A stretch of 64,000 bases of DNA from Bacteroidia bacterium. GTDB taxonomy: Bacteria > Bacteroidota > Bacteroidia > Flavobacteriales > Flavobacteriaceae. Below, in pieces: positions 20,483-45,713 of the stretch. Position 1 is the stretch's first letter, and every line of letters starts with the position of its first letter. A program made the position numbers and the translations under genes. A model generated the notes under the pieces. That model saw only the letters and a program-made list of their open reading frames with translations, had not been told where the DNA came from and made no database searches. Location of the stretch: positions 62,001 to 126,000 of the forward strand of contig JAUIKY010000001.1 in NCBI GenBank assembly GCA_030430535.1, given 5' to 3'.

Positions 20483-20483
<1 letters not shown>

Positions 20484-23400
20484 TGCGTTTCAAAATAAAA
20501 TATTTCAGCCTGTTTTTTGTGTTATTCTTGGTCATGTCTTGTAAGGAAGAACAAAAGGAAACAACTGCATTTTTTCAGCCCACGGAAGACAGTGCCAAGC
20601 CATGGGTTTACTGGTATTGGATGAAAAGTGCCTATTCCAAGGAAGGCATTACGGCCGATTTGGAAGCGATGAAACAAGCAGGCATTCGTGGGGCATATTT
20701 AATGACCATTAAAGGGCCGGGTGAAGAACCATTAATGAACCCACCAGTGATTCAATTAAGTAAAGAGTTTTGGGAATTGGTGCGATGGGCATTGCTGGAA
20801 GCCGACCGATTAGGCTTGAAAATTGCGTTCCATCCTGCTGATGGGTTTGCAGTAGCTGGTGGGCCTTGGATTACCCCAGAATTATCCATGCAAAAAGTGG
20901 TTTGGGCCGATACCGTGGTGAATTCATCTGAAGTGAAGGACTTAAAATTACCCGTTCCTGAGCATTATAAAGATTATTATAATGACATTGCTACATTTGC
21001 GATTCCTGTTGAAAAAGCGTTTAAAACTTCAGTGGAAGTGCAACCAAAAGTGACTGCTTCAAACCATGAAAAAGCCGATTTTTTAACGGACAATTCAACA
21101 CACAATACACAGTTTAGAATGCGAGAAGCAGGTTATATTCAGTATGAATTTAATAAAGCTTTTGATTGTAAATCCATTCAAATTGAAACCCAAGGGAATA
21201 ATTATCAAGCCCACCGATTATTAATTGAAGTGAGCGATGATGGCGAAAACTTTAAAAGTTTAGGACGATTGGAAACCCCACGTTCTGGGTGGCAAGATAC
21301 AGACGTAAACTATACGCATAGCGTTTCAGCGAAAGCGAAATATTTCCGATTTATTTACAACCCAGAAGGCTCTGAGCCTGGTGCCGAAGATTTGGATATG
21401 GCGAAATGGAATTCGTATTTAAAAGTCACTAAAATCATCCTTTCCGAAGAACCGCTTATAGATAACTACCAAGGGAAATCTGGGGCAGTTTGGCGCATTA
21501 GTTCAAGAAATACCGAAAAACAAATTCCAGATGCCGATTGTATAAATACCGAACAAATGGTGAATGTGTCGCAATTTGTTGATGAAAGTGGTGTTTTGAA
21601 TTGGGAAGCTCCGCAAGGGCAATGGCGTATTTTACGCTTCGGTCATACCTCTACAGGGCATGAAAATGCCACTGCTGGTGGTGGCCGTGGTTTGGAAGTC
21701 GATAAATTTAATGCCGAAGCCGTGCGCTTTCAACTAGACCATTGGTATGGCAAAATGCGACGTGTGGCGGGCGAAGATTTGGCGAGTAAAGTGGTGGAGA
21801 TTTTGCACATGGATAGTTGGGAATGCGGTAGCCAAAATTGGTCGCCCGTGTTTCGTGAAGCTTTTAAAATGCGACGTGGTTACGATATTATTGATTATTT
21901 GCCTGTGATGGCTGGAATTCCATTGGATTCTGCGGCAAAGACGGAACAGATTTTATACGATGTTAGAAAAACCATCACCGAATTAACAGCCGAAAATTTC
22001 TTCGGAACTTTAAAAGAAGAAGCCGAAAGAACAGGGGTGAAATTCAGTACCGAAAATGTCGCCCCAACCATGACCAGTGATGGGTTGCTGCATTTTAAAT
22101 ATGTGGATTATCCTAGTGGCGAATTTTGGTTTAGAAGTCCCACACACGACAAACCTAACGATATGTTGGATGCCATTAACGGCGGACATATTTACGGTCG
22201 AGATATTATTCAAGCCGAAGCGTTTACACAACTTCGAATGGATTGGGACGAGCATCCGGGGAATTTAAAAACCATGGCAGATAGAAATTATGCTTTGGGC
22301 ATTAATCGTTTTTTCTATCATGTGTTTATGCACAATCCGTGGTTGGATAGAAAACCGGGAATGACTTTAGACCCAATTGGAACGTTTTTTCAACGTGACC
22401 AAACGTGGTGGGAGCCTGGGCGAGCGTTTTTTGAATATTGTAAAAACATCCAGTTTCAGTTACAAAAAGGACAACCGGTTATCGATTTTGCAGTGTTCAC
22501 TGGGGAAGATATCCCGTCGCGTTCGGTGTTGCCCGACAGATTATTGCCGTTTATACCAAATGTGTTTGGGGCAGAGCGTGTGGCTTCAGAAAACATCCGA
22601 TTAGCCAACGAAGGACAACCCTCGGCCCGTATGCCTAAAGAAGTGAAATACACTAAAAACAGCACTGATTTATCGGAGTGGGTGAATGCCCTGAACGGAT
22701 ATAAATACGATTCGTTTAACAGCGATGTGTTGTTAAATGCCGAAGTAAAGAATGGGAAAGTGGTGTTTAAGGATGCCTTGGCTTACAATTTTTTGGTGTT
22801 CCCGGATGCCAGAAAAATGATGCCAACTAATATTTTATCTCTGGAAGTAGCAGAAAAAATGGTGGATTTGGTAAAAGCTGGAGCAACCATTTTTGTGGGT
22901 GAAAAACCGACAAGCATAGCCAATTTAAAAACCGATAAAGCCAAATGGCAACATTTGGTAGATGAATTATGGGCTGGAGCTAATCAAAAGCAATGGACTT
23001 TAGGAAAAGGGAAAGTCATCCAATTACCATATTTAGGCAATGATTTTTCAGAATTGGGCGTAGAACCCAATGTGTTGGTCGATGAAAATATCGCTTGGAC
23101 GCAACGTGAATCAGCCGATGAAAGCATTTACTTTTTATCCAATCAAAAAGAAGAAAAGCGGATTTTAGACGTGTCGTTTAGAGTTTCTGGCAAACAACCC
23201 GTCTTGTATCATCCCGTTTCAAATGAAACTACAGTTATAGAAAACTGGAAAGTTGAAAATGGACGAATCATTATGCCGTTGCAGTTTCTGCCAAACGAAG
23301 CCTTTTTCATCATTTTTAAAGATGGGATTGATGAAAATATTTCTGAAGGTGCATTAAACTGGTCAACTTTTAAAACTGAAAAAGTATTGGATGAAAGTTG

Positions 23401-23863
23401 GGCACTTGAGTTCGATGCAGCTTATCATGGACCTTCCAAAGCGATGAAAATTAGTAAACTTTTTGATTGGACAACTTCAGAAAATGATAGTATAAAATAC
23501 TATTCGGGAACAGCGAGTTACACCAAAATTTTTCAGTGGGATTCTCAAGAAACAGATGATTTATATCTGGATTTTGAGGAAGTGAACTGCATTGCTGAAG
23601 TATTTGTAAATGGAATAAACTGCGGTGTGGTTTGGACCTATCCGTATCACGTAAACATTTCCGAAGCTATAAAAGAAGGAGAGAATACAATAGAAATAAA
23701 AGTCACTAACACTTGGGCAAATCGTTTGATTGGCGATGAAAAATTGCCTCAGGAAGACCGCTTAACTTGGACTACCGCTCCGTTTAGGTTAGACGATACT
23801 ATGATGGTGAAATCTGGGCTTTTAGGAAGCATTCAAATTAAAAAGAAAATAAATGAAAAATAG
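20483..23863 (+). CDS. GH106 alpha-L-rhamnosidase lipoprotein
   Basis: 1126 residues. Lipoprotein signal ending LVMSC, followed by KEEQKE, an acidic/lysine-rich stretch of the type that favours surface export in Bacteroidota. The GH106 pattern is clear: the opening AKPWVYWYWMKSAYSKEGITADLEAMKQAGI, a TIM barrel with HMDSWECGSQNWSPVF and FSTENVAPTM, and a C-terminal GH2-like beta-sandwich (VNCIAEVFVNGINCGVVWTYPYHVNI). GH106 enzymes remove alpha-L-rhamnose from RG-I and RG-II. The ATG overlaps the preceding stop (taATG), and the next gene starts 11 bases before this one ends. Confidence 0.93.
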
Positions 23864-25310: not shown

Positions 25311-25387
25311 TTGTCACCCTGAATTTATTTCAGGGTCACAGATAGCTTGTTCAGAAATAAAAAGATGCCGAAACAAGTTCGGCATGA
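25311..25387. repeat. Two tandem palindromic repeat units overlapping a start codon
   Basis: Unit 1: ACCCTGAA (25316-25323), 5-nt loop, TTCAGGGT (25329-25336). Unit 2: ATGCCGAA (25365-25372), ACAAG loop, TTCGGCAT (25378-25385). Each has the 8-bp stem and 5-nt loop also seen at 30225-30245. Unit 2 supplies the only in-frame ATG of the following gene. Confidence 0.7.
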
Positions 25388-27722
25388 AAAAAAACAGTTA
25401 ATAAGAAAATTGAAAAATTTAATATCTAATATATTTCTTTTAGTAGCGTTTTTCTCTGTAAAAGCACAAATCCCTACGCTCAAAAATTACAATCAAATTT
25501 GGACGACCCAAAGCAAAAACGCTTCAGAATCCATGCCCTTAGGTGGTGGTGATATGGGTTGTAATGTGTGGGTTGAAGAAGGGAGCTTATATTTCTATTT
25601 TTCAAAAAGTGGTACGTTCGATGAGCACAATACCTTGTTGAAATTAGGACGTGTAAAAGTAGAATTGACGCCCAATCCGTTTAGAGATAACGAAGGCTTT
25701 AAACAGGAATTGCATTTGGAAGATGGCTATATTTTAGTATCGCAAAACCATACAGAACTTAAACTGTGGGTCGATGTGTTTCACCCGGTAATTCATATTG
25801 ATGTAAAAAGCAAAGAGGCTTTAGAATTAAAAGCGTCTTATGAAAGTTGGCGCTATAAAAACCGAAAAGTAGAAGGGCGAGCCAATAATGCCAATTCTTA
25901 TAAATGGGCGCCACAAGGTGATATTATTACTTATCAAGACTCTATTTCCTTTAAAGATAACGCAGTTGAATTCTATCATCAAAATCGAGAACATACCGTG
26001 TTTGATGTAGTGGTAAAACAACAGCAAATGGAATCGGTAAAGGAGCAAATGATGAATCCCTTAAAACACCTCACTTTTGGAGGTGTCATGCAAGGAAAAA
26101 ACTTGATTTCAGATGGAACGTATCAAGGTATTTATCAAGATACCGATTTTAAAGGTTTTAGTTTAAAGAGTAAAAAACGGAGTAAACATCACAGTGTAGA
26201 ATTGTATTTGCACACGGTTCAAAATGAAAATATTGCCGTTTGGGAAAAAGGCTTACAAAACTTGATGTCGTCTTACAAACCAAAGGAAAAGAACACTAAA
26301 GATTGGTGGAATAATTTTTGGAAACGCAGTTTTATTTTTACGAAAGCTGAAAACGATTCGGTCAATCAAATTGGGCAAAACTATCAACTGTTCCGATATA
26401 TGCTAGGGGCAAATGCCTACGGAAAATACCCAACAAAATTCAATGGCGGTTTGTTTACAGTTGACCCTGTTTACACCAAAGAAGACCACAGATTCACTCC
26501 TGATTTTAGAAATTGGGGTGGTGGAACCATGACCCAACAAAATCAACGTTTGGTCTATTTTCCCATGTTTAAAAGTGGCGATTTCGATATGTTGCCATCG
26601 CAATTGGATTATTATTTAACGCTTCAAAAAAATGCGGAGTTGCGTAGCCAAGTATATTGGAATCATACGGGGGCCGCTTTTACAGAGCAATTGGAAAATT
26701 TCGGTTTACCTAATCCCGCCGAATATAGTTGGAAACGCCCAAAAGATTACGACCCAGGCATGCAATACAATGCTTGGCTGGAGTACCAATGGGACACCGT
26801 TTTCGAGTTCTGTAAAATGATGCTGGAGCAACAGGAATATGCCAACATAGACGTTAAAAAATACAATGGCTTTATTTTAAGTTGTTTACGTTTTTTTGAC
26901 GAACACTACCAATATTTAGCTAAAAAACGCGGCCGAAAAGCATTGGATGCCAACGGTCATTTGGTGTTGTATCCGGGTTCGGCGGTGGAAACATATAAAA
27001 TGGCATATAATGCCAATAGCACCATTTCAGCATTAAAAGTAATTAGCGAAAAATTATTGAAAGTGTCTTCAGATGATTTAAGAGAAGAAGAAGTAGAATA
27101 TTTGAAAGGTTTTCAAAAACGCATTCCGCCGTTAAACTTTAGGGAAATAGACAATCAAAAGGTATTATCTCCTGCAAAATCGTGGGAACGCATCAACAAC
27201 ACCGAAGCGGCTCAATTGTATCCAGTTTATCCGTGGAAATTATATGGTTTGGGCAAACCCGATTTAAAAGTGGCTCAAAACACTTATTTTTTAGATGAAG
27301 ATTTGCTGAAATTTAGAAGTCACGTAGGGTGGAAGCAAGCTAACATTATGGCGGCTCGATTGGGCTTAACCGAAGAAGCGGCAAAATATACTTTGTTGAA
27401 AATGTCAAATTCCGAAAGGCGCTTCCCGGCCTTTTGGGGACCTGGTTTTGATTGGGTGCCCGACCATAACTGGGGCGGTTCCGGTATGATAGGCATGCAG
27501 GAAATGTTGCTGCAAGAAGTTGATGGGAAATTATTGTTGTTTCCGGCATGGCCAAAACATTGGGATGTTCATTTTAAATTACATGCCAAGCAAAACACTA
27601 CTGTTGAAGCGAAACTTGAAAACGGAAAAGTAGAGATTATAAAAGTATCACCAGAACACAGAAAAGAGCATATTCTAAATCTGTTGGAATATTCGTTAAA
27701 CGATAAATTAAATTTGAATTAA
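25365..27722 (+). CDS. DUF5703-like (alpha/alpha)6-barrel glycoside hydrolase, exported
   Basis: The only in-frame ATG (25365) lies inside a palindromic repeat and would add MPKQVRHEKKQLIRK before the signal peptide. A TTG at 25410 gives a clean signal peptide (MKNLISNIFLLVAFFSVKAQ) and is the more likely start. The body resembles GH95-clan proteins: an N-terminal beta-sandwich beginning SMPLGGGDMGCNVWVEEGSLYFYFS, then an (alpha/alpha)6 barrel with YWNHTGAAFTEQLENFG and PGSAVETYKMAYNANSTISALK. I associate this with DUF5703 proteins, which have no well-known activity. It is probably an exo-acting glycosidase on a pectic side-chain sugar. It ends directly against the ATG of the next gene. Confidence 0.65.
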   Translation: MPKQVRHEKKQLIRKLKNLISNIFLLVAFFSVKAQIPTLKNYNQIWTTQSKNASESMPLGGGDMGCNVWVEEGSLYFYFSKSGTFDEHNTLLKLGRVKVELTPNPFRDNEGFKQELHLEDGYILVSQNHTELKLWVDVFHPVIHIDVKSKEALELKASYESWRYKNRKVEGRANNANSYKWAPQGDIITYQDSISFKDNAVEFYHQNREHTVFDVVVKQQQMESVKEQMMNPLKHLTFGGVMQGKNLISDGTYQGIYQDTDFKGFSLKSKKRSKHHSVELYLHTVQNENIAVWEKGLQNLMSSYKPKEKNTKDWWNNFWKRSFIFTKAENDSVNQIGQNYQLFRYMLGANAYGKYPTKFNGGLFTVDPVYTKEDHRFTPDFRNWGGGTMTQQNQRLVYFPMFKSGDFDMLPSQLDYYLTLQKNAELRSQVYWNHTGAAFTEQLENFGLPNPAEYSWKRPKDYDPGMQYNAWLEYQWDTVFEFCKMMLEQQEYANIDVKKYNGFILSCLRFFDEHYQYLAKKRGRKALDANGHLVLYPGSAVETYKMAYNANSTISALKVISEKLLKVSSDDLREEEVEYLKGFQKRIPPLNFREIDNQKVLSPAKSWERINNTEAAQLYPVYPWKLYGLGKPDLKVAQNTYFLDEDLLKFRSHVGWKQANIMAARLGLTEEAAKYTLLKMSNSERRFPAFWGPGFDWVPDHNWGGSGMIGMQEMLLQEVDGKLLLFPAWPKHWDVHFKLHAKQNTTVEAKLENGKVEIIKVSPEHRKEHILNLLEYSLNDKLNLN

Positions 27723-30369: not shown

Positions 30370-32385
30370 ATGAAAAATAAAATTCTAATTTCAATTTTTA
30401 GCCTCTTTGGCGTTGTGATATTCGCACAAAACAAAGGACTTACTGCTAATTCAGATAGTCCGCATGCCAAACTAAAAAGTTTGGATTTACACGATGTGGT
30501 TTGGACCGATGGCTTTTGGAAAGAACAGTTTGATGTAGAAACTCAAAACACATTGCCTTACATGTGGGAGCTCTATCATAACGATAGCGTGAGCCACGCT
30601 TATGCTAACTTTAAGATTGCAGCAGGTTTGGAAAAAGGCAAACATGCCGGACCTTCTTTTCATGATGGTGATTTTTATAAAATTATGGAAGGTATGGCTT
30701 CGGCGTATGCCATAACCAAAGACCCAAAATTGGACAAACAAATGGATGAGGCCATTGCGATGTTCGATAAAGTTCAGCGTGCCGATGGCTACATCAATAC
30801 CCCTGTTTTAATTGAAGAACGCTGGGGGACTTTAGGACCCGAAGAATTAAAAAAACAATTGGGCTTTGAAAAATACAACATGGGTCATTTAATGACGGCA
30901 GCCTGCGTACACCACCGTGCTACGGGAAAAGATAATTTTTTAAACGTAGCTAAAGGTGTTGCCGAATTTTTATACGATTTTTATAAAAAAGCTTCACCAG
31001 AGCTGGCCAGAAATGCCATTTGTCCTTCGCATTATATGGGCATTGTAGAAATGTACCGCACGGTAAACGACCCGAGATATTTGGAATTGGCGAACAATTT
31101 AATCGATATCCGTGGAACCACAAATGATGGCACCGACGATAACCAAGACCGCATTCCGTTTAGGCAACAAACCACAGCCATGGGGCATGCCGTTCGCGCT
31201 AATTACTTATATGCGGGCATAGCCGATTTATATGCCGAAACAGGAGAGGAAAAACTCATGGAAAATCTCAAATTGATTTGGGAAGACGTGGTTTATCGTA
31301 AAATGTATATCACCGGCGGTTGTGGTGCTCTGTATGATGGTGTGTCGCCTGATGGCACGGTTTACGACCCGTCTATTGTTCAAAAAATACATCAGGCTTA
31401 TGGACGTCCGTATCAATTGCCAAACGCCACGGCACACACTGAAACTTGTGCCAACATCGGTAACGTTCTTTGGAACTGGCGTATGCTCCAACTTACGGGC
31501 GATGCCAAATATACCGATGTGATGGAGTTGGCTTTTTATAATAGTGTACTTTCGGGCGTGAGTTTACAGGGTACGGAGTTTTGTTATAATAATCCGCTAA
31601 ACGTTTCTGATGATTTGCCTTTCGAGCAACGCTGGGGACATGAACGGGAAGGCTACATTGCTTGGTCCAACTGCTGTGCGCCTAACGTTACCCGAACTTT
31701 GGCCCAGGTGAATAATTATGCCTATAATATTTCAGAAGCAGGTTTGCATGTAAACCTTTACGGTAGCAACCTTTTAAAAACGGAAACTTTAAATGGGGAC
31801 AAATTAGAAATTGAACAAAAAACAAATTACCCTTGGGAAGGCCATGTAGCGCTTAATATTAAAAAAGCTCCAAAGAAAGAATTTTCAATTTTTGTAAGAA
31901 TTCCGGGGTGGAGTGAAGGAGCAACCATTAAAATAAATGGAGAGGCTTATGCTGAAAAAATAGTATCGGGAAGTTATGTTGAATTGAACAGAAAATGGAA
32001 AAAACGAGATGTTATTGAAATTGACATGCCTATGCCAGTAAAGTTGATGCAAGCCAATCCTTTGGTAGAGGAAACCAAAAGCCAGGTGGCTGTAAAACGT
32101 GGACCGATAGTGTATTGTTTGGAAACTGCCGACCTTCCGGTTGAAGCTAATATCAATAACGTCGCATTGGATGTCAATTCAGAATTTTCTACCGAAAAAT
32201 TCAACCTAAAAGGCAAAGAAGTCATAGCGGTAAAAGGCAAAGCATTTGTGGAAGATACAAACTGGGAAAAAGCCCTTTACAAACCTTTAAATCAAGATAA
32301 GAAACAAATAGACATTCAACTGGTGCCATATTTCACTTGGGGAAATAGAACCGATGGCGAAATGACCGTTTGGATGCCGTACTAA
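30370..32385 (+). CDS. GH127 family exo-glycosidase with Gln at the acid/base position
   Basis: 671 residues with signal peptide MKNKILISIFSLFGVVIFAQ. GH127 (alpha/alpha)6 barrel: NFKIAAGLEKG, YINTPVL, PNATAHTETCANIG, WSNCCAPNVTR. The zinc-thiolate site is intact: Glu358-x-Cys360 and Cys435-Cys436, equivalent to Glu338, Cys340, Cys417 (nucleophile) and Cys418 of the Bifidobacterium HypBA1. The residue 16 places before Glu358, where HypBA1 has its acid/base Glu322, is Gln342 (HQAYGRPYQLP). So it may not be an ordinary beta-L-arabinofuranosidase. GH127 also holds an aceric-acid hydrolase from the B. thetaiotaomicron RG-II system, which would fit here. It is 18 bp upstream of the fucose isomerase gene. 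Confidence 0.88.
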   Translation: MKNKILISIFSLFGVVIFAQNKGLTANSDSPHAKLKSLDLHDVVWTDGFWKEQFDVETQNTLPYMWELYHNDSVSHAYANFKIAAGLEKGKHAGPSFHDGDFYKIMEGMASAYAITKDPKLDKQMDEAIAMFDKVQRADGYINTPVLIEERWGTLGPEELKKQLGFEKYNMGHLMTAACVHHRATGKDNFLNVAKGVAEFLYDFYKKASPELARNAICPSHYMGIVEMYRTVNDPRYLELANNLIDIRGTTNDGTDDNQDRIPFRQQTTAMGHAVRANYLYAGIADLYAETGEEKLMENLKLIWEDVVYRKMYITGGCGALYDGVSPDGTVYDPSIVQKIHQAYGRPYQLPNATAHTETCANIGNVLWNWRMLQLTGDAKYTDVMELAFYNSVLSGVSLQGTEFCYNNPLNVSDDLPFEQRWGHEREGYIAWSNCCAPNVTRTLAQVNNYAYNISEAGLHVNLYGSNLLKTETLNGDKLEIEQKTNYPWEGHVALNIKKAPKKEFSIFVRIPGWSEGATIKINGEAYAEKIVSGSYVELNRKWKKRDVIEIDMPMPVKLMQANPLVEETKSQVAVKRGPIVYCLETADLPVEANINNVALDVNSEFSTEKFNLKGKEVIAVKGKAFVEDTNWEKALYKPLNQDKKQIDIQLVPYFTWGNRTDGEMTVWMPY

Positions 32386-32403: not shown

Positions 32404-34185
32404 ATGAAATTCAAAACATTAATTGGCGAACTGCCCAAAATAGGAATCCGTCCCGTAATTGATGGCCGTTTGGATGGTGTTCGCGAATCGTTGGAAGATA
32501 CTACGATGAATATGGCCAAAAACGCCGCCAAATTTTTAACCGAAAATTTACGTCACGCCGATGGTAGCCCGGTGGAATGCGTTATTTCAGACACCTGCAT
32601 TGGTGGAGTGGCCGAGGCTGCGGCTTCAGCTGACAAATTTTCAAGAGAAGGCGTTGGTGTTAGTTTAACCGTTACGCCATGTTGGTGTTATGGTACGGAA
32701 ACCATCGATATGGACCCTACCATGCCTAAAGCCATTTGGGGATTTAATGGTACTGAACGTCCGGGAGCGGTGTATTTAATGGCGGCATTGGCGGGCCATA
32801 ACCAAAAAGGTATTCCGGCGTTTAGTATTTACGGAAAGGATGTTCAAGATAGTGACGATACCACCATTCCTGAAGACGTTCAGGAAAAACTATTGCTTTT
32901 CGGAAAAGCGGGATTGGCCGTGGCCACTATGAAAGGCAAATCGTATCTCTCGATGGGCTCGGTATCTATGGGAATTGCAGGTTCCATTATTGACGCCGAT
33001 TTCTTCGAAAGTTATTTAGGCATGCGTTGCGAAAACGTCGATATGTCTGAATTCATAAGAAGAATTGAACAAGAAATTTACGATAAAGACGAATACGAAA
33101 AAGCCTTAGCTTGGACGAAAGAAAAATGCAAGGAAGGCAAAAACTATAACCCTTCAGAAAAAGTAAAATCACGGGAAGAATTAGATAAAGACTGGGAGTT
33201 TGTTGTGAAAATGGCCTTGATTGGTCGCGATTTAATGATAGGCAATCCCAAGTTAAAGGAAATTGGTTACGCCGAAGAAGCACAAGGTAAAAACGCCATT
33301 TCAGCCGGATTCCAAGGGCAGCGCCAATGGACCGATTATTTCCCCAATGGCGATTTTATGGAAGCCATTTTAACCTCGTCTTTCGATTGGAACGGCATCC
33401 GCCAACCGTTTATGTTAGCTACCGAAAATGACAGTCTTAACGGTATTTCCATGTTGTTTGGGCATTTGCTAACGGGTGCGGCACAAATCTTTAGCGATGT
33501 ACGTACCTATTGGAGCCCAGAGGCAGTAAAACGAGTAACCGGCCATACCTTAACCGGTGACGCCGCTCATGGATTTATTCATTTGATTAATTCTGGAGCG
33601 TCGGCTTTAGATGGTACTGGCCAGCAAACCATCGACGGTAAACCAGTCATGAAACCTTGGTGGGACATTACGGAAAACGAAGTAGAAAAATGTCTGGAAC
33701 ACACCACTTGGGGACCCGGTATGCGGGAGTATTTTAGAGGCGGAGGTTATTCGTCAACCTTTAAAACCAAAGGTGGCATGCCCATTACCATGTGCCGTAT
33801 CAATTTAGTGAAAGGCATTGGTCCGGTGTTGCAAATCGCCGAAGGGCAAACCATCGAGTTGCCAGAAGAGGTACATAATACATTAAACGAACGTACCAAC
33901 CCGACTTGGCCGACCACTTGGTTCGTGCCTAATTTAACGGGCAATGGACCGTTTAAGGATGTGTACAGCGTCATGGCCAATTGGGGCGCCAATCACGGTG
34001 CGTTTACTTATGGGCATATTGGGGCCGATTTAATCACTTTAGCATCCATGTTGCGTATTCCTGTGAATATGCATAACGTTTCGGAAGATAAAATTTTTAG
34101 GCCAAGTGCTTGGGCATCCTTCGGAATGGATAAGGAAGGTGCCGATTATCGCGCCTGTGCGACTTATAAAGCGCTTTATGGGTAA
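32404..34185 (+). CDS. fucI: L-fucose isomerase
   Basis: 593 residues, cytoplasmic, normal length for FucI. Opening [20 protein letters not shown] and [16 protein letters not shown] are typical. The metal/catalytic residues line up with E. coli Glu337, Asp361 and His528 as Glu341 (LATENDSL), Asp365 (IFSDVRTYW) and His531 (ANHGAF), with the same Glu-Asp spacing of 24. It converts L-fucose to L-fuculose, and FucI enzymes also accept D-arabinose and sometimes L-galactose. No fuculokinase or aldolase gene is in the window. It fits with the GH141 alpha-fucosidase and mutarotase fusion at the operon start. It is the last gene of this transcript and is followed by a strong terminator. Confidence 0.95.
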
Positions 34186-34205
34186 AATTATCTGTGGGAC
34201 GTTGT

Positions 34206-34253
34206 GGGCGTTACCAAAAGTGTCGGGTTTTTCCACTGCAATTCCTAACGCAA
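34206..34253 (+). repeat. Remnant of a flavobacterial 3'-intergenic repeat
   Basis: GGGCGTTACC ... GTCGGGTTTTTCCACTGCAATTCCTAACGCAA resembles, from memory, a repeat commonly found downstream of genes in Flavobacteriaceae (GGGCGTTACC...GTCGGGC...GCTGCAAT...CCTAACGCAA). Here it seems shortened in the middle. It occupies the gap between the fucI stop and the terminator. Confidence 0.4.
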
Positions 34254-34291
34254 AAAAAGAGGTTTTCAATTATTTTGAAAGCCTCTTTTTT
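34253..34291 (+). terminator. Strong intrinsic terminator after fucI
   Basis: AAAAAAGAGGTTTTCAA (34253-34269) pairs with TTGAAAGCCTCTTTTTT (34275-34291) over 17 bp with one G-U pair and a 5-nt loop, ending in a T tract. The A-start/T-end symmetry could also work from the other strand. It closes the 33-kb plus-strand run beginning at 1083. Confidence 0.85.
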
Positions 34292-34422
34292 AATTGTCAC
34301 TCATAGGTATTTTAAAAATGTAAAGAATCAATTTACTTGTTCATGTCGTAAGCTTGTCGTAAAAGTGACATGCATAGAAAACAATAACTTAATGTATCTT
34401 TATATTGAAATTAAAAATAAGT

Positions 34423-35031
34423 ATGGAAAACAAAGAGTTCAGTAGAAAACTGAAAAAACTTAGAGAAAGGAAGGGTTTGTCTCAAGAAGAATTAGCTAAT
34501 CTTTCTGGCTTAAGTTTAAGGACAATTCAACGTATGGAAAAAGGTGAAACAAAACCACATGGTGATACGAAAAGAAAAGTTGTTGAAATTCTAGAGTCGC
34601 ATCCAGATATAGACATAGATAATGAATTGAAGACAGATAAAGAGAAAGACATTTTTCAAAAAATGATTATAAAATTTGAATATCCTTTTATCCTTTATAT
34701 CTTATCATTATTTCTATTTTTTATAGGGGTATCAGGAATTAAAGGAATGATTTATTTTGGCTTAATAATTGGATTTCTGTCTATTATATTTCTTGTTATT
34801 TCTACCAAATACCAATTAAAAAATAAGGGTTTTAAAAAGGGGGGTAAATATTTAGTGACAGCTTTTTTCTCTGCTTTTATTTATCTTTTTTTAATAATCT
34901 TATTTATTCCAGGAAAAAGGGTGAGTGTTAGAATAACTAATGGTATACCTACAAGGATTGAAACAAATTTTATCACAGGAAGATCAGATACAACAATTAC
35001 CGTAAAAAAACTATACAAGCATGCTGATTAA
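34423..35031 (+). CDS. XRE-type HTH regulator with C-terminal membrane segments
   Basis: ATG 34423 is the likely start; the track's 34405 is a TTG. 202 residues. Residues 5-60 are a helix-turn-helix: FSRKLKKLRERKGLSQEELANLSGLSLRTIQRMEKGETKPHG. A linker (DIDIDNELKTDKEKDI) leads to about three hydrophobic helices and a short basic, extracytoplasmic-looking tail. Such membrane-bound XRE proteins are common in Flavobacteriaceae, with unknown signals. The gene is more AT-rich than its neighbours, separated by terminators and repeats, and ends 20 bp from the convergent SSS gene, so it may be an insertion unrelated to the pectin system. Control of the locus is possible but not shown. Confidence 0.75.
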   Translation: MENKEFSRKLKKLRERKGLSQEELANLSGLSLRTIQRMEKGETKPHGDTKRKVVEILESHPDIDIDNELKTDKEKDIFQKMIIKFEYPFILYILSLFLFFIGVSGIKGMIYFGLIIGFLSIIFLVISTKYQLKNKGFKKGGKYLVTAFFSAFIYLFLIILFIPGKRVSVRITNGIPTRIETNFITGRSDTTITVKKLYKHAD

Positions 35032-35051
35032 ATCCTTGCTTGAAATATTAG

Positions 35052-36521
35052 TCATTTTTTCGGTTTCATTAAAGAAGACACTAAAAATCCCACCAAGAAA
35101 ATAGCAATCGTACCAAAAACAATGGTTAAATAGGTGTGAAACGAGGCACCAAGGCTATCGGGACCAAAAATGCGTTCGGAAACCGTTAACCAAAGAATGA
35201 CTAAAATACCCGCTATCATACCAATAATGGCTCCTGTAGCATTTTTAGTTTTCGAGAACATTCCCAATAAAAACAGCCCCAGCATACCACCACTGAAAAT
35301 GGAAGATAGCTTCCACCAAGCATCCAATGCACTTTTTACATTAATCATGGCAATGGCTATGCTAATCCCGATAATACTGATAATGATGGATGATATATAA
35401 AGCACTTGCATACGCTTTTTATCCGAAGCATCCTGTTTAAAATATTTGTTGTAATAATCGGTTAAAAATACCGTGGCCGAACTGTTAAAACTGGTTGAAA
35501 TGGTACTCATTCCGGCAGCAAAAATAGAGGCAATTAGCAACCCCGTAATTCCTGCAGGTAGGGCGTTTACAATAAAATGCGGAAAAACACGATCGGCTTT
35601 ACTGATGTCCTGCAAAGCTTCAGGCAACACTTCAGCCGAATTATAATACGCGAAAAGTGAGGTGCCGATAAAAAGAAACAGGGCAGAAATGGGTAAGTAG
35701 ATTAAACCACCAATTAATGCCGAACGTTGAGCTTCCTTATCCGATTTTAAAACCATATAGCGTTGCACATAGTTTTGATCGATACCGTAATTTTGAAGGT
35801 TAATAAAAACACCGTAAATTAATACCACCCAAAAGGTGGTTTTATCCCATTCTAAGCTAAAACTTCCTAAGCTGAACTTATTGTTTTCGGCAGCAATTTT
35901 AAAAATTTGTGATGGCCCTTCCGGCATACTAAAAAGCATAAAAACAATACAGGCCAAAGCACCAACTATTAGAATGATACCCTGAATGGCATCGGTCCAT
36001 AGTACGGCCGAAATCCCGCCCAACATAGAATAGGCGGCCACCACCAAGCCTGTAAAAACAATAATGGTGGCGATATCCCATCCGGTTATGGCGTTCAGCG
36101 TAAGCGCCAATAAATATAAAATGGTGCCTATGCGCATCAATTGCGTCAATAAATAACAGAGCGACACATAAATGCGTGCCCACGACCCAAACCGTTGTTC
36201 CATGAATGTGTATGCCGACGGACTATTGATTTTTCGATACAGCGGTACAAAATATTTCACCGCAATAATGGTGGCTATGGGTAGCGACAAACTAAAAACG
36301 AGTGCATTCCAATTACTTTGAAAGGCATTTCCCGGTAAAGCCAAATAACTAATACTACTGACAAAAGTGGCGAAAATGGACATAGTGACCACCCAGCTGG
36401 GTATGTCTTTATTTCCTAAGGTGTAAGATGATGATGTTTTGTTTTTTTTGAAGAAAGAACCGCCAAAAAGGGCAATGCCTCCTATGTAAACAAAAAACAC
36501 TATAATGTCAAGAGTATTCAT
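35052..36521 (-). CDS. Sodium/solute symporter (SSS family)
   Basis: 489 residues, all-membrane. MNTLDIIVFFVYIGGIALFGGSFF, SSSYTLGNKDIPSWVVTMSIFATFVSSISYLALPG and FAAGMSTISTSFNSSATVFLTDYY are SSS family hallmarks, the last being the sodium-site region. It is closest in character to the sialic-acid/uronate-type symporters of Bacteroidota. It is transcribed after the DapA-family aldolase gene with a 56-bp gap. The pairing suggests import of a sugar acid that the aldolase splits after conversion. It is not a close copy of the SSS gene at 6919. Confidence 0.87.
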   Translation of the reverse strand: MNTLDIIVFFVYIGGIALFGGSFFKKNKTSSSYTLGNKDIPSWVVTMSIFATFVSSISYLALPGNAFQSNWNALVFSLSLPIATIIAVKYFVPLYRKINSPSAYTFMEQRFGSWARIYVSLCYLLTQLMRIGTILYLLALTLNAITGWDIATIIVFTGLVVAAYSMLGGISAVLWTDAIQGIILIVGALACIVFMLFSMPEGPSQIFKIAAENNKFSLGSFSLEWDKTTFWVVLIYGVFINLQNYGIDQNYVQRYMVLKSDKEAQRSALIGGLIYLPISALFLFIGTSLFAYYNSAEVLPEALQDISKADRVFPHFIVNALPAGITGLLIASIFAAGMSTISTSFNSSATVFLTDYYNKYFKQDASDKKRMQVLYISSIIISIIGISIAIAMINVKSALDAWWKLSSIFSGGMLGLFLLGMFSKTKNATGAIIGMIAGILVILWLTVSERIFGPDSLGASFHTYLTIVFGTIAIFLVGFLVSSLMKPKK

Positions 36522-36577
36522 TAATAATGGGCGTTTAGTTTAGTTGGTAAATTGTAACAAAGAGTGGTGGTGGCACT

Positions 36578-37489
36578 CTATAGCACTTCTGCTATTTGAG
36601 CTTCAATGTCTTTAATATTTTGTTTTACGGCATTGAATTCCTTTTCGTCAAAGCAATGGAAGGGCGGGGCAATATGCTGGTCAATAATCCCCAAAGCTGA
36701 AAGTCCGGCTTTCATACCTTTTAGGTAGCTTGAACCAAAAGCTCCTAAGCTGTAAATCTTTGTTGATACTTCCATAACTAAGTGCTGAAGCTTGGCGATG
36801 CGCTCAAAATCTTTAGCGATAGTGGCATTGTAAAGTTCTACGTAAAGTTTAGGGAACATATTGGCTCCTCCGTTTACGCCACCATGCCCGCCCATTAAAA
36901 CGGTTTGGGCGGTGACTTCTTCTGGTCCCACCAAGAGCGTGAAATCTTTGTGCTTTAATAAATGACACAGTTTTTGAAAATATACAATATTGGCCGAACT
37001 GTCTTTTAAGCCTATAATATTGGGGTGCTCGGCAAGTTTAACGGCAGTATCAATTTCTATGTTTATTTTAGTGTGCGAGGGCATGTTATAAAGGAAAAGG
37101 GGGAGTGGTAGTTGGTCGGCCAAACTCCAATAATATTTGTGAAGTTCTATTTGCCCCATGCCGTAATAAAAAGGAGGCGCTGCAACTACAGCAGAAGCTC
37201 CGGCTTCTTTAGCAATATTTGCCAGATTTAAGCTCTCTTCAATCGAGGTGTCTGAAATACCCACAAATAGCGGTACCCTTCCCTCAACAATTTTGGCACT
37301 TTCTACAATAAATTGCGCTCTGGTTTTATAGCTCAAACTAGTAGCTTCACCAGTTGTGCCCAGAATAAAAAGACCGTGAACGGCGCCTGAAATAATGTGG
37401 TTTATTAAATTGTGAACACCCTTTACATCCAGTGAAAGATTGTCTTGTAACAAAGGTGTTACCATTGGTGGAATAATTCCGTTTACCAT
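36578..37489 (-). CDS. DapA/N-acetylneuraminate lyase family aldolase
   Basis: The start is ATG 37489; the track's 37495 is a TTG. 303 residues. Class I aldolase TIM barrel: FILGTTGEATSLS (phosphate/carboxylate loop), FLYNMPSH with the catalytic Tyr, and NIIGLKDSS with the Schiff-base Lys. Family members split or form 2-keto-3-deoxy acids: N-acetylneuraminate, KDG, 2-keto-3-deoxy-L-fuconate or dihydrodipicolinate. In a pectin locus KDG from unsaturated galacturonate is the first guess; RG-II also contains Kdo and Dha, which are 2-keto-3-deoxy acids. It is divergent from susC. A weak 6-bp hairpin (36561-36579) lies in the gap before the symporter gene. Confidence 0.85.
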   Translation of the reverse strand: MVNGIIPPMVTPLLQDNLSLDVKGVHNLINHIISGAVHGLFILGTTGEATSLSYKTRAQFIVESAKIVEGRVPLFVGISDTSIEESLNLANIAKEAGASAVVAAPPFYYGMGQIELHKYYWSLADQLPLPLFLYNMPSHTKINIEIDTAVKLAEHPNIIGLKDSSANIVYFQKLCHLLKHKDFTLLVGPEEVTAQTVLMGGHGGVNGGANMFPKLYVELYNATIAKDFERIAKLQHLVMEVSTKIYSLGAFGSSYLKGMKAGLSALGIIDQHIAPPFHCFDEKEFNAVKQNIKDIEAQIAEVL

Positions 37490-37595
37490 GCTCAAATTTT
37501 ATTAGATAGTGAATAGTTGAAATGTACAGACGGTAACTGATTTATAATTAGGCGTTGCCGTGTTTTTCCAAATTTCAATAATTAAACAAAAAGGA

Positions 37596-37733: not shown

Positions 37734-40700
37734 ATGAAAAAAGCAATTTCCAATGCTTTATTTTTGCTGCTTTTCGGTGTGTTTGCACTTTCGGGCTTCT
37801 CTCAAACAGGCGGTAAAAAGGTGGTTTCAGGTACAGTGTTAGATAATTCTAGTGTGCCGTTGCCAGGTGTAAATGTTATTGAAAAGGGAACTAATAATGG
37901 TGCGGTAACCGATTTTGACGGTAATTACAGTATCAGTGTCAATGAAGGGAGCACAATAGTGTTTACCTTTATTGGTATGAAAACTGCCGAAAAGGTAGTG
38001 GGTGATAAAAGTACTATAAATGTAACGCTACAAGAAGATACAGAATCTTTAAGTGAAGTGATTGTAGTGGGGTATGGTGCTCAAAAGCGTGAAGCTGTTA
38101 CTGGTGCCGTTGAAAGTATAAAGGGGGAGGAAATTGAAGACTTACCTGTTGGAAATTTAGCCTCAGCCCTTGTAGGCCGAGTTCTGGGGGTTAGTGTTTC
38201 TGGAGGTCAATCTAGACCTGGTGCTCCCGCACAGATAACTATTCGTAACCCGGTTTCGGGTAATAATATTAGAGCCAAGGACATGTTTGCTACAGATCCA
38301 CTTTATGTTATTGATGGTGTTGTTCAGATTGACCCTAATACAGGTCAAAGTGACCCCACAAGATTTAATAATTTAGATGCTTCGGAGGTAGAAAGTATAT
38401 CTTTCCTTAAAGATGCCTCGGCAGCTATTTATGGCTCAAGAGCAGCACAAGGTGTGGTTTTAGTTACAACTAAACAAGGAAAAAAGGGGCCAGCTAAATT
38501 TTCCTATTCTGGGAACTTTTCGGTTTCAGATGAAACTTATCGTCATGAGATGTTGAACGCTTATGATTTTGCTCGTGTAACTAATATTATTAACGGACCT
38601 AATGGTTTGGGAGCAACTTACGACCCTGCAGACCCCAACCCTGGGGCTACTAATGATGGTGTTTTTTTCTCACCTGCTGAACTTGAGTTTTTTAAAACGA
38701 ATAGTTATAATGCTTTAGATCAATATTGGTCTTCAGCCAGTACGCAGCGACACAACTTGAATGTTAGCGGAGGTAGTGAAGATGCCACATATTTTGGAGG
38801 TATTTCCTATTACACCCAAGATGGTAACTTAGGAACGTTAAACTACGATAGGTGGTCGTTTAGAGCAGGTTCAAATATTAACTTGGCAAAAGGCTTTAAG
38901 GCTGATTTTCAGGTGTCTGGGTATTTTACTGATGAAAGCAAAACAACCAGTAAAGTTGGAAGTGAAAATGTAGAGAACGATTTCAGACAACTTCAAAATA
39001 GAGCGCCCTATTTACCGATGTATATTAATGGGTTACCGGCTGTACAAAATGGATCGTTAGCTGCAGACCTTAGTGGATATCATTATGGTGAAATACAACG
39101 CTTGCAAAATTTAGCTGTTAATACCGATCATAATGTAGCGGTAAACTTAAACGTAGAGTATGAGGTGCCCTTTATAAAAGGGTTAAAATTAAAAGCTAAT
39201 TATGCTCGTCAAATGGCAGCTGGTGGAGGAAACCAAATAGGAGGGAAGTTTTATTTGTATGACTTCTATGGAGCGAATCCAGATGCTGATACAAGTGGTC
39301 CAAACAACGGATTCGGACAAACCTATATCTATTACAGAGATGGTAGCGGTCCTTTGGGAGTAAATGATGTAAAGAGTGAATATTTGGTAGAAAATGGTGA
39401 TAGATTATTGTTGGATAACACTAGAAGCCAAAATGAACAAATACGTTTTCAAACCTCATTCGATAGAGATTTTGGTAAACACAGTGTTTCTGCATTGTTT
39501 GCTGTGGAAAGGGCTGAAAGATACCAAACCAAAGAGCGCATTATTAAATCTGGTGTTCCAGATTGGGCAGATGGAATGCTTTGGCAAGCTACAGGAACAC
39601 TTGATGAACAGAATACATACAATTGGAAATATGAATCTGGGGACTTAGGGCTTATAGGTAGACTTAATTATAATTATGATGGTAAATATTATGCAGAGCT
39701 CTTATTTAGAAGTGATGTTTCTGCCAAATTTGCGCCAGAAAACTATTGGGGAAATTTTTACTCCATTTCAGGAGGTTGGATTATCTCTAAAGAAGATTTC
39801 TTTAAGTCCAATACTATTGATTTTTTAAAGTTTAGAGGTTCGGTTGGTTTTGTAGGTAAGGACGATACTAGAGCATGGCAATGGCGACAAAGTTTTGAAT
39901 ATGATCCTTTGGATTTTAATGGAGCGGTTTTTGGAGGTAATGGTTCATTGTCTGGAGGTTTGGAGCCATCTAGAGCAGCAAATCCAGATATTCGTTGGGG
40001 AAAGGAGCTTAAAACCAATTTTGGACTTGAAGCCCGCTTTTTGGATAACAGGCTATCAGCAAGTGCTGAAACTTTTTATAACATCGGTACAGAATTACTC
40101 GTAAATGTGAATTCAGGAGTGCCTTTTACAGTAGGAGGATCTTCGGCAGCCTCTAATTCTGGTCGTGCAGATACTTGGGGTACAGAGATATCTTTAGGTT
40201 GGGACGATTCAGTTGGTGACGATTTTAGTTATGGTGTTAATTTTAATATAGGTTGGTACCAAAATAATATTATTGAAGGTAATTTTTCAAATGAAGCAAA
40301 CTGGTATCCTTGGCAATCTAATAAGCCCGGTCCTTCAGATATTGGTAAATGGGGTTACGATTACTTAGGCATGTTTAGAACGCAAGGCGATATAGACAGT
40401 TATATTGCTGAAACAGGTGTTACTGAAATTTTGGGTATTGCAGCCGCAGATTTAAAACCAGGTATGTTGTATTATCGAGATGTTCGTGGGGCTTGGGATC
40501 CTGAAACCAGAACGTTTGCACCAAAGGATGGAATTATAAACCAATTTGATCAAATTCAATTACAAAAGCGGGCTAAGGGGCCACAAGGTTTTGATTCAAG
40601 CATTCGTTTACGATACAAACAGTTGAGCTTAAACACTGTTTTAAGCGTTGGTTGGGGCGGTTACCGAGAAGTAGGTAGTGCTAAAACACCATTTATAAGC

Positions 40701-41090
40701 AGTAATATTATTTCAAATTATGAGAATAGGCCAGCATTTTGGGCAAATATGTATGACCCAGAACAAAACCCTACAGGAACTATACCTAACCTTCAAAGAG
40801 CTATAAACCAGGGGTCTCCAGATAGTGATGGTGGAATAAACACTGTGAGTTCTAGTTTTTGGCAAGTTAGTAGCTTTAGTATGATGATGAGGAATATAAA
40901 TTTAAGTTATAGTTTGCCTAAAACACTAACGGACAAAGTAGGTGTAGGAAACTTTAGATTGAATTTGGTAGCAATGAATCCATTCATTTTGTTTAACCCA
41001 TATAAAAAGTATGGATTAAGCCCTTACGGTTCATATAACAGCTATCCGGTATTGAGAACCTATTCCTTGGGTGTTAACATAGGGTTTTAA
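37734..41090 (+). CDS. susC: SusC-family TonB-dependent outer-membrane oligosaccharide transporter
   Basis: 1118 residues with signal peptide MKKAISNALFLLLFGVFALSGFSQ. A carboxypeptidase-regulatory-like domain occupies about residues 28-105 (GTVLDNSSVPLPGVNVIEKG), followed by the TonB box region (SEVIVVGYG), the plug (YVIDGVVQ, LKDASAAIYGSRAAQGVVLVTTKQG) and a 22-strand barrel ending YSLGVNIGF. There is no N-terminal STN domain, so it is not a FecA-like signalling receptor. It imports oligosaccharides captured by SusD. Base composition is more AT-rich than the enzyme genes. It is followed by susD after 18 bp and is likely controlled by the region carrying the 36-bp element. Confidence 0.95.
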   Translation: MKKAISNALFLLLFGVFALSGFSQTGGKKVVSGTVLDNSSVPLPGVNVIEKGTNNGAVTDFDGNYSISVNEGSTIVFTFIGMKTAEKVVGDKSTINVTLQEDTESLSEVIVVGYGAQKREAVTGAVESIKGEEIEDLPVGNLASALVGRVLGVSVSGGQSRPGAPAQITIRNPVSGNNIRAKDMFATDPLYVIDGVVQIDPNTGQSDPTRFNNLDASEVESISFLKDASAAIYGSRAAQGVVLVTTKQGKKGPAKFSYSGNFSVSDETYRHEMLNAYDFARVTNIINGPNGLGATYDPADPNPGATNDGVFFSPAELEFFKTNSYNALDQYWSSASTQRHNLNVSGGSEDATYFGGISYYTQDGNLGTLNYDRWSFRAGSNINLAKGFKADFQVSGYFTDESKTTSKVGSENVENDFRQLQNRAPYLPMYINGLPAVQNGSLAADLSGYHYGEIQRLQNLAVNTDHNVAVNLNVEYEVPFIKGLKLKANYARQMAAGGGNQIGGKFYLYDFYGANPDADTSGPNNGFGQTYIYYRDGSGPLGVNDVKSEYLVENGDRLLLDNTRSQNEQIRFQTSFDRDFGKHSVSALFAVERAERYQTKERIIKSGVPDWADGMLWQATGTLDEQNTYNWKYESGDLGLIGRLNYNYDGKYYAELLFRSDVSAKFAPENYWGNFYSISGGWIISKEDFFKSNTIDFLKFRGSVGFVGKDDTRAWQWRQSFEYDPLDFNGAVFGGNGSLSGGLEPSRAANPDIRWGKELKTNFGLEARFLDNRLSASAETFYNIGTELLVNVNSGVPFTVGGSSAASNSGRADTWGTEISLGWDDSVGDDFSYGVNFNIGWYQNNIIEGNFSNEANWYPWQSNKPGPSDIGKWGYDYLGMFRTQGDIDSYIAETGVTEILGIAAADLKPGMLYYRDVRGAWDPETRTFAPKDGIINQFDQIQLQKRAKGPQGFDSSIRLRYKQLSLNTVLSVGWGGYREVGSAKTPFISSNIISNYENRPAFWANMYDPEQNPTGTIPNLQRAINQGSPDSDGGINTVSSSFWQVSSFSMMMRNINLSYSLPKTLTDKVGVGNFRLNLVAMNPFILFNPYKKYGLSPYGSYNSYPVLRTYSLGVNIGF

Positions 41091-41108
41091 ATTTAAAAAA
41101 GATTTAGC

Positions 41109-43097
41109 ATGAAAAATATAAAAATAAATAACCTGTTTTTACTTTTAAGCTTGGTGTTTTTAAGTAGTTGCAGTACAGATTTTATTGAAGAGAAGAAAAA
41201 TTATCAACAAGTTGAAGCAGAGATTTACCAAGATGAATTTTTAGCCAACTTGTATGTGAATAATTTATATTACCTGTTTTTGCCAGATGGAGATACCAAC
41301 ATGACCATGTGGTCTAAATCTGCGGATGATAATTCTGATATTGCAGGTAGAGGAGATGTGACATTGTTTGCCAAAGCTACTGATGAAGTGGCAGGAAGGG
41401 TTGATATTAACAGAGAGTGGGCTACTATTTCTCCTGTAAATGCTCATTGTTTGTTGAGTTTAGGTCAACCAATTGAAACAAATCCGCAGAATGATGCTTG
41501 GACAAGAATAAGATATTGCAATATATATATCAATAATGTTGACAAGTACGATGGTCTAGAAGAAGATTTTAAAAACCAAGTTAAAGGACAACTTTATTTT
41601 TGGAGAGCATGGCAATATTTTGAATTGTTGAGATTATATGGAGGGATTCCAATTGTTTTAGAAGAACAACCATTAACGGCAAATTCTTCAGTAAACCAAA
41701 CACCAAGAAGTTCAGCAGCAGATGTAGTAAATCAAATTGCAGCTGATTTAGATATGTCCAAAAACTTGTTGGAAAACGCAAGGCCTTATACAGCTGATGA
41801 AGCTGGTAAAATAACAGCTGCTGCTGCAGCTGCTCTTAAGGGGCGTGTATTGCTAACATGGGCGAGTCCGCAATTTAATAGAAATGATGATCAATCGAGG
41901 TGGCAAAGGGCTTATGATGCTAATTTAGAGGCTTACAACTTTTGTTTAGCAAACGGAAAAGGCTTAGACCCAGATTGGCAAAACATGTGGTTTAATGATA
42001 ATGGAATGGAATCCATTTTTGCTTTTGGGTTTAATAATTATAACGATAATGTTGGAGGCATTTCTAAAAATAATAATACAGAGTTCCAATCAAGACCAGA
42101 AGAGCAGGGAGGAAATGCTACTATTTCACCTACAAAAAGTATTGTAGATGCTTTCCCAATGGCAGATGGAACTCCTTATAATCCGAATGGAAATTTAAAT
42201 CACTTTTATAGAAATAGAGATCCTCGTTTCTATCATACATTTGCTTATAATGGTAGCATATGGCCTTACAGGCAAAATCCGAATTATAAATTTTGGACTT
42301 ATAGGTGGTATCCATTAACAGCAGGTGAAGGTAGGCCAGTACTAAGAACAAATAATAGAAACACCAATAATAGGTCGGGTATTTTCTTGAAAAAATTTAC
42401 TAACGATAATTCAAGTAATGTGAATAACTTTACTGATAGTGGAGCTGACTACATGGAAATCCGTTTTGCAGAAGTTGTACTTAATTTAGCCGAATCAGCC
42501 ATTGGTATTAATAATTTATCCGAAGGAAAGAGCTATATTCAAGAGGTGAGAGAAAGAGCAGGTATCCAAAATTTAGATGGGCAATATGGTTTATCTTCAG
42601 TGAATACTAGGGATGAACATTTTGAAGTAGTTATTAACGAAAGAAAAGTCGAATTTGCTTATGAGAATAAACGTTTTCACGATTTAAGACGCTGGTTACT
42701 CTATAATGATTCTTTTGGTACTTGTACTCGTTTAAACCAGACTCCAATCGAGGGTATGAGAAGAAAAGGCTTCTTCATTTTTGCTAAGTCAGATGCGGAT
42801 ACTTATTATGAAAACGGGAGAGCTGTCGATCCATTTTTAGGTAGTGATGCACCAATAATAAACAGAGATACCACATCATACCCATCAGGAGTGAATAGTT
42901 ATGAAGAGTTTGTTGATTATTTGTACGATAACCATTTTGAAGTTGTTGTTAGAGATAACGTTGAATCTCAAGATGATTTTACTTTTAAATGGTACAATGA
43001 GTATTATTTCTTTGGTGTTTATCAAGATTTGGTTGAATCAGCACCTTATTTACAACAAACACAGGGTTGGGGCGGTTCATTTGTGCCTTATAACTAG
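41109..43097 (+). CDS. susD: SusD-family glycan-binding lipoprotein
   Basis: 662 residues. The lipoprotein signal ends LVFLSSC, followed by STDFIEEKK, whose acidic residues suit surface exposure. The SusD/RagB pattern is clear: KGQLYFWRAWQYFELLRLYGGIPIVLEEQPL with the TPR-like helices, AAAAALKGRVLLTWASPQFN, and the C-terminal ADYMEIRFAEVVLNLAESA and ERKVEFAYENKRFHDLRRW. It caps the SusC barrel and binds the oligosaccharide. It is the only SusC/SusD pair in the window, so it would feed both enzyme blocks. A strong terminator follows directly. Confidence 0.95.
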   Translation: MKNIKINNLFLLLSLVFLSSCSTDFIEEKKNYQQVEAEIYQDEFLANLYVNNLYYLFLPDGDTNMTMWSKSADDNSDIAGRGDVTLFAKATDEVAGRVDINREWATISPVNAHCLLSLGQPIETNPQNDAWTRIRYCNIYINNVDKYDGLEEDFKNQVKGQLYFWRAWQYFELLRLYGGIPIVLEEQPLTANSSVNQTPRSSAADVVNQIAADLDMSKNLLENARPYTADEAGKITAAAAAALKGRVLLTWASPQFNRNDDQSRWQRAYDANLEAYNFCLANGKGLDPDWQNMWFNDNGMESIFAFGFNNYNDNVGGISKNNNTEFQSRPEEQGGNATISPTKSIVDAFPMADGTPYNPNGNLNHFYRNRDPRFYHTFAYNGSIWPYRQNPNYKFWTYRWYPLTAGEGRPVLRTNNRNTNNRSGIFLKKFTNDNSSNVNNFTDSGADYMEIRFAEVVLNLAESAIGINNLSEGKSYIQEVRERAGIQNLDGQYGLSSVNTRDEHFEVVINERKVEFAYENKRFHDLRRWLLYNDSFGTCTRLNQTPIEGMRRKGFFIFAKSDADTYYENGRAVDPFLGSDAPIINRDTTSYPSGVNSYEEFVDYLYDNHFEVVVRDNVESQDDFTFKWYNEYYFFGVYQDLVESAPYLQQTQGWGGSFVPYN

Positions 43098-45015: not shown

Positions 45016-45044
45016 ACAAAAATCAAATTAAAAAAGACACAACT

Positions 45045-45713
45045 ATGTTTTCAAAGAAAATAACCTTGGGTTTATTGTTATTAATATCCATTGTGGCCAA
45101 CATTAACGCGCAACAGCATTTAGACCCTGAATACATAAAAGTGACGGAGCAAAGAGCTTCTAAAATTGTAGACCAAATTGAAATTTCAGATTCTGGAAAA
45201 GCCAATGTGGTCACCCAAATTATAGCCAAGCAATACCAAAATCTAAGCAGATTGCATGACGAAAGAGATGCAAGCGTTGATGCCATAAAGGCAAAAGGTT
45301 TTGAAGATGCCAAAGAAGAAAGAAAAATAGCCAAGGCAAAACAGAAGTCTGTAAAAAAAATCAGTAAATTACATAAAGCTTATCTAAACCAATTGGATAA
45401 GCATTTAACTGAGCAGCAAATTGATGCCGTAAAAGATGGCATGACCTATGGCGTTTTGCCTAAAACCTATGCGGCTCATTTAGAGATGATTCCAAGCTTA
45501 ACCGAGCCCCAAAAACAATATATTTACAATAACCTGAAAGAAGCACGTGAGCGTGCTATGGATGCAGGTTCTTCAAAAGAAAAGCATGCTTGGTTTGGTA
45601 AATATAAAGGGCGAATCAATAACTATCTTTCAGCCGAAGGTTATGACCTTCAAAAAGAAAGGGAAGGTTGGTACAAGCGCATCGAAGAAGAAAAAAAACA
45701 AGCTAAAGAATAG
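45045..45713 (+). CDS. DUF3826-like secreted protein
   Basis: The start is ATG 45045, giving signal peptide MFSKKITLGLLLLISIVANINAQ; the track's 44961 start overlaps the preceding lyase and lacks a signal. 222 residues, mostly helical, rich in Lys and Glu, with LTEQQIDAVKDGMTYGVLPKTY and MIPSLTEPQKQYIYNNLKEARERAM, which I recall as typical of DUF3826. That family is often found beside pectate lyase genes and is described as putatively sugar-binding, without a proven role. Here it sits between the two PL1 paralogues, which supports a role tied to these lyases, such as a binding or chaperone partner (inference). Confidence 0.65.
   Translation: MFSKKITLGLLLLISIVANINAQQHLDPEYIKVTEQRASKIVDQIEISDSGKANVVTQIIAKQYQNLSRLHDERDASVDAIKAKGFEDAKEERKIAKAKQKSVKKISKLHKAYLNQLDKHLTEQQIDAVKDGMTYGVLPKTYAAHLEMIPSLTEPQKQYIYNNLKEARERAMDAGSSKEKHAWFGKYKGRINNYLSAEGYDLQKEREGWYKRIEEEKKQAKE

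Follow-up and report, generated by a model that had tools for sequence, protein, structure and literature searches.

What does a GH127 glycosidase hydrolyse, and what donates its proton, when the glutamate that serves as acid/base in its relatives is replaced by glutamine? The question is raised by an ORF at positions 30370–32385 (forward strand, as are the GH, SusC/SusD, BT1020-type, methylesterase and glucuronidase-type genes below) of a 64,000 nt stretch of a Flavobacteriaceae genome (Bacteroidia bacterium, GCA_030430535.1, contig JAUIKY010000001.1, positions 62,001 to 126,000), here called the window.

The GH127 protein and its active site

The ORF encodes a 671 aa protein that begins with a signal-like stretch. 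The initial annotation had assigned it to GH127, and this was borne out by Pfam, as the catalytic, middle and C-terminal domains of the family (PF07944, PF20736 and PF20737) all scored above cut-off, the catalytic domain with 355 bits. An AlphaFold2 model has a mean pLDDT of 88 and a clear fold, with values below 50 in an insertion beside the active site, and its top Foldseek match is 5MQO.

HypBA1, the beta-L-arabinofuranosidase of Bifidobacterium longum, uses Cys417 as nucleophile and Glu322 as acid/base (reviewed in PMC8106489), and His142 is one of its sugar-binding residues (PMC10850190). Q342 (31393–31395), E358 and C360 (in E358-T-C360, 31441–31449) and C435-C436 (31672–31677) were read directly in the translated protein, and a 153-row alignment with HypBA1 pairs them with E322, E338, C340 and C417/C418, respectively. 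E358 and C360 correspond to two of the four zinc ligands and C435 to the presumed nucleophile, and the aligned residues thus predict a zinc site of one Glu and three Cys with a Cys nucleophile. The intact Zn-Cys site and the Gln in place of Glu322, both described in the initial annotation, were confirmed in this way. Misalignment at Q342 was ruled out, as the motif is unambiguous and places the site exactly 16 residues ahead of E358. The protein shares its domains, fold and Zn-(Cys)3-Glu site with HypBA1, but HypBA1 has Glu322 and His142 where the protein has Q342 and F166, lacks the insertion and belongs to another clade.

In this clan the acid/base is normally important, because the E694Q mutation in the clan relative Bll3HypBA1 abolished activity (PMC10850190) and a structure of HypBA1 E322Q (7EXU, by its title) holds bound pNP-arabinofuranoside. 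A Gln at this position departs from what is expected of GH127, yet the same departure is seen in BT1003, an accepted member of the family.

Relationship to the aceric acid hydrolase BT1003

The nearest solved structure is 5MQO, titled 'Glycoside hydrolase BT_1003', which matched with 835.7 bits and approximately 55% identity; the next, 4QJY, scored 373 bits. BT1003, from B. thetaiotaomicron, is an aceric acid hydrolase according to PMC5698469 and PMC10850190, where it takes part in the degradation of RG-II (rhamnogalacturonan-II, a plant pectin). The BT1003 motif, HQSYGRPYQLPNSTAHNETC, is the same as that in the 671 aa protein, Gln included. The two proteins have in common their fold, the pattern HQ-x-YGRPYQLPN-x-TAH-x-ETC, the insertion and the kind of RG-II locus in which they are found. 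They differ in lineage, and the flavobacterial protein has approximately 19 fewer residues before FE-x-YN, an extra Asn before C435 and Ala437 in place of Pro. Against the NCBIfam equivalog NF049879, 'aceric acid hydrolase', it scored 1106.6 bits over its full length, approximately 150 above the cut-off of 950, and nothing excludes it from that family. Four other members of the same clade also pass (1056–1175 bits), while five proteins from the sister clade fail (689–846 bits).

For comparison we drew on 80 loci of named genomes, on matches from across 396 genomes belonging to the phylum, on relatives within the window genome itself and on plasmid copies; rows with at least 50% identity were counted as the clade (96 alignment rows). 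In a maximum-likelihood tree, the Gln-containing rows and BT1003 formed one clade (SH-aLRT 99), and did so again when the whole motif region was removed. The phylogeny with BT1003 and HypBA1 that the initial annotation had proposed as a check therefore places the protein with BT1003, which also has the Gln, and apart from HypBA1.

Position 342 is Gln in every row of the clade (96/96, or 97/97 with a copy from a Rufibacter plasmid). It is Glu in all nine sister rows, one of which is a fragment, and in 46 other GH127 rows, the three other solved GH127 enzymes among them; Glu is kept in HypBA1, Ara127N, BT3674 and the sister clade. Apart from that of Rufibacter, the plasmid copies that cover the site all have Glu, and it was through a few plasmid copies that phyla beyond the window's own were sampled. 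Two very distant family members in the window's own genome were excluded from the counting: one (L084) has Glu, and the other (L082), with 22% identity, has Asn in a stretch of unreliable alignment. None of the Zn/Cys residues varies across the clade. A sequencing error or a mutation in a single genome was ruled out, as the Gln is common to 97 sequences. We conclude that Gln at position 342 is a fixed trait of the clade and more than a chance substitution, and we make no claim that it was previously unreported.

The Gln is accompanied by other changes. A clade-specific insertion of 17 residues (325–341; VSPDGTVYDPSIVQKIH; 31342–31392), absent from ordinary GH127 proteins, sits directly before Q342 and ends in the invariant H341. 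D323, just ahead of the insertion, and H356, which replaces a Tyr (HypBA1 Tyr336) that is universal elsewhere, are like H341 present in 96 of the 96 rows. Further clade-fixed changes are Phe166 for HypBA1 His142, Tyr222 for a universal Glu, Tyr429 for Trp412 and an added pair, R421-W422. As His142 binds sugar in HypBA1, both the acid/base site and the sugar site have been rebuilt in the clade. The initial description of the site, correct as to the Gln and the Zn/Cys residues, had not picked up the insertion linked to the Gln or the further altered residues of the pocket.

The nearest relatives outside the clade, 40–47% identical, form the sister clade (L106–L110, L116, L117 and L180), which differs in that it keeps the Glu, has a shorter insertion, falls below the NF049879 cut-off and has no RG-II genes nearby. 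Tandem copies were seen in several of its genomes, and in Flammeovirga its locus adjoins sulfatases, a GH2 and a 2-keto-3-deoxy-sugar pathway. The substrate of this sister clade may be a sulfated polysaccharide of marine origin.

Pfam and some public annotations name the family beta-L-arabinofuranosidase, and the protein might on that ground be an arabinofuranosidase that tolerates the substitution. The initial annotation had named a Gln in characterized beta-L-arabinofuranosidases as evidence against its own proposal. We looked for one among those of the set and found none: all keep Glu and fall outside the clade. With the sugar-binding H142 replaced by Phe166 and Gln mutants in the clan inactive, we rejected this reading as highly improbable. 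That the protein is a catalytically dead pseudoenzyme, as the loss of a residue essential in its relatives might suggest, seems more improbable still, and this too was rejected: the same Gln is present in BT1003, which is described as active, the Zn/Cys residues are all invariant in the clade, and the gene has been retained in an RG-II locus over many genera.

What would be expected of an aceric acid hydrolase was found, namely the equivalog score, a place in the clade with BT1003 apart from the arabinofuranosidases, and RG-II enzymes as neighbours. We conclude that the gene very probably encodes a flavobacterial aceric acid hydrolase, orthologous to BT1003 and with the clade-wide Gln, an activity predicted from sequence. 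We put the probability at approximately 0.93, a figure that covers the identity and the clade-wide Gln and not the proton path. A rare-sugar activity in place of arabinofuranosidase, as initially suggested, is supported by the clade, NF049879 and the locus; to call it a candidate rare activity overstates its novelty, as this kind of enzyme is already known and its family recognized.

The RG-II locus and its counterparts

The initial annotation had pointed to GH140, GH141 and GH95 in the same locus. All three were found, together with homologues of further RG-II enzymes. The GH141 (1083–3581) has a C-terminal domain resembling L-rhamnose mutarotase (RhaM), and similar sequence occurs in two other RG-II loci (L163 and L164). 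The GH140 apiosidase homologue is at 50634–52061 and the GH95 at 60604–63120. A GH106 identified by Pfam (20483–23863) is followed by a homologue of the GH139 2-O-methyl-fucosidase (25347–27722; 939 bits to 9HYQ, with a match also to 9HMB), and a SusC/SusD pair occupies 37734–43097 (37734–41090 and 41109–43097).

Proteins that are multi-domain in B. thetaiotaomicron are represented here by separate or partial genes. BT1020 (5MQR) has a homologue of its N-terminal half only (54592–56442), and BT1017 is split between a gene for a homologue of the pectin methylesterase catalytic module (6GOC; 59238–60665) and a DUF3826 gene (44961–45713). The N-terminal domain of the RG-II beta-glucuronidase/beta-L-arabinofuranosidase model stands alone (16005–17144), matching positions 10–363 of a 1400-position profile with 511 bits, below the full-length cut-off. 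The matching region is one that we take to be the GH137 domain of BT0996.

Genes for an L-fucose isomerase, an SSF symporter and a DHDPS-family aldolase (32404–37495) adjoin the acerase gene. The same set lies by the acerase in two other flavobacterial loci (L002 and L008) and on the Rufibacter plasmid. As a Kdo aldolase would yield pyruvate and D-arabinose, and FucI also isomerizes D-arabinose, our guess is that the set may be a Kdo module. Close relatives of a PhyH-type 2OG-Fe(II) oxygenase (6053–6802) were found in only 2 of the 121 family genomes searched; both also carry the acerase, and in one (G453) the two genes are approximately 22 kb apart. One might speculate that this oxygenase O-demethylates methylated RG-II sugars. 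A DUF6298 protein of 1054 aa (47463–50627), without a solved relative, has a homologue near the acerase gene in another locus (L161) and is a candidate RG-II protein.

Of 80 orthologue loci in flavobacteria, 78 have a GH139 gene and 74 a GH106 gene no more than 10 kb from the acerase. Counts of pectate lyase neighbours were inflated by three paralogues that matched the same genes and were given no weight. RG-II genes were nearby in 9/10 of the more distant clade loci, compared with 1/8 Glu-type loci, where the lone positive matches GH2 and GH43-like genes only, and 0/4 sister loci. A mobilizable plasmid of Rufibacter tibetensis (L179) carries an acerase and pectin-type genes (GH28, GH88, DUF3826 and SusC/D). 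Thus, the capacity can be plasmid-borne.

Candidate proton paths in the clade

Aceric acid is 3-C-carboxy-5-deoxy-L-xylose and is linked as alpha-L-AcefA-(1->3) (PMC8218411). The exported enzyme would release alpha-L-aceric acid from side chain B of RG-II after removal of the outer sugars. By analogy with HypBA1, the reaction would be retaining, with the zinc-bound Cys435 as nucleophile. In the literature covered, which did not include the primary BT1003 paper (2017), we found no mechanistic statement on BT1003.

The initial annotation had proposed that a carboxylate on the substrate could make the protein acid dispensable. By our own stereochemical derivation, the C3 carboxyl and the alpha glycosidic oxygen share one face of the ring. 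When the furanose ring was modelled in idealised form without enzyme, 40 of 108 alpha conformers brought a carboxylate oxygen to within 3.2 Å of O1, and no beta conformer did; the minimum distance was 4.07 Å for beta and 2.45 Å for alpha, the latter being the floor set in the script. The proposal is therefore stereochemically possible in this model, which speaks to geometry and not to use. We expect residue 342 not to be the acid/base. On the carboxylate path, the C3 carboxylate of the substrate, 1,3-cis to the glycosidic oxygen, would protonate the leaving group and then deprotonate the attacking water, with Q342 contributing hydrogen bonds only. This is our preferred, though unproven, proton path, held tentatively and at somewhat short of even odds. 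Extended to the whole clade, it would describe Zn-cysteine glycosidases without a protein acid/base, in which the carboxylate makes both transfers and the Glu-to-Gln change and the insertion became fixed together as the lineage turned to aceric acid, a picture that we hold a shade more tentatively. For a free carboxylate to serve as an acid, its pKa would have to be raised, and the invariant H341, D323 and H356 could be the acid/base instead.

Indeed, the acid/base may have been relocated within the protein, with H341, D323 or H356, brought in or changed with the insertion, replacing Glu322, and Q342 a neutral substitute that would not repel the carboxylate of the substrate. The strict conservation of all three residues is consistent with this, as are the position of H341 within the insertion, adjoining Q342, and the presence of H356 where Tyr is otherwise universal. 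The same residues could, however, have a part in holding the carboxylate or in forming the pocket, and a strict Gln at position 342 suggests that its side chain is still directly involved. Relocation is a serious possibility that we would nonetheless not call probable, and it ranks about level with the carboxylate path.

The strict Gln could also mean that no true general acid is needed, with Q342 hydrogen-bonded to the leaving group and Zn-Cys activation doing the rest. In plant myrosinases the acid/base Glu is naturally Gln, as in the acerase clade, but unlike the acerase these glycosidases have an unrelated fold (GH1), act on a thioglucoside and use ascorbate as the base. The leaving group here is an ordinary sugar hydroxyl, that of a 1->3 linkage, and the inactive E694Q enzyme and substrate-holding E322Q structure also argue against an acid-free reaction, which we regard as unlikely.

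The carboxylate path remains our preference, and the candidates for the missing acid come down to a few residues and a single group on the substrate. Aceric acid hydrolases can be told from beta-L-arabinofuranosidases by Gln at the acid/base site together with the 17-residue insertion. As the two kinds of enzyme are often annotated alike, the combination is a usable marker of RG-II loci. A mechanistic gap is exposed as well, in that the members of a glycosidase family always lack a residue essential in their relatives, and what replaces the missing acid in this clade is a real and testable question.
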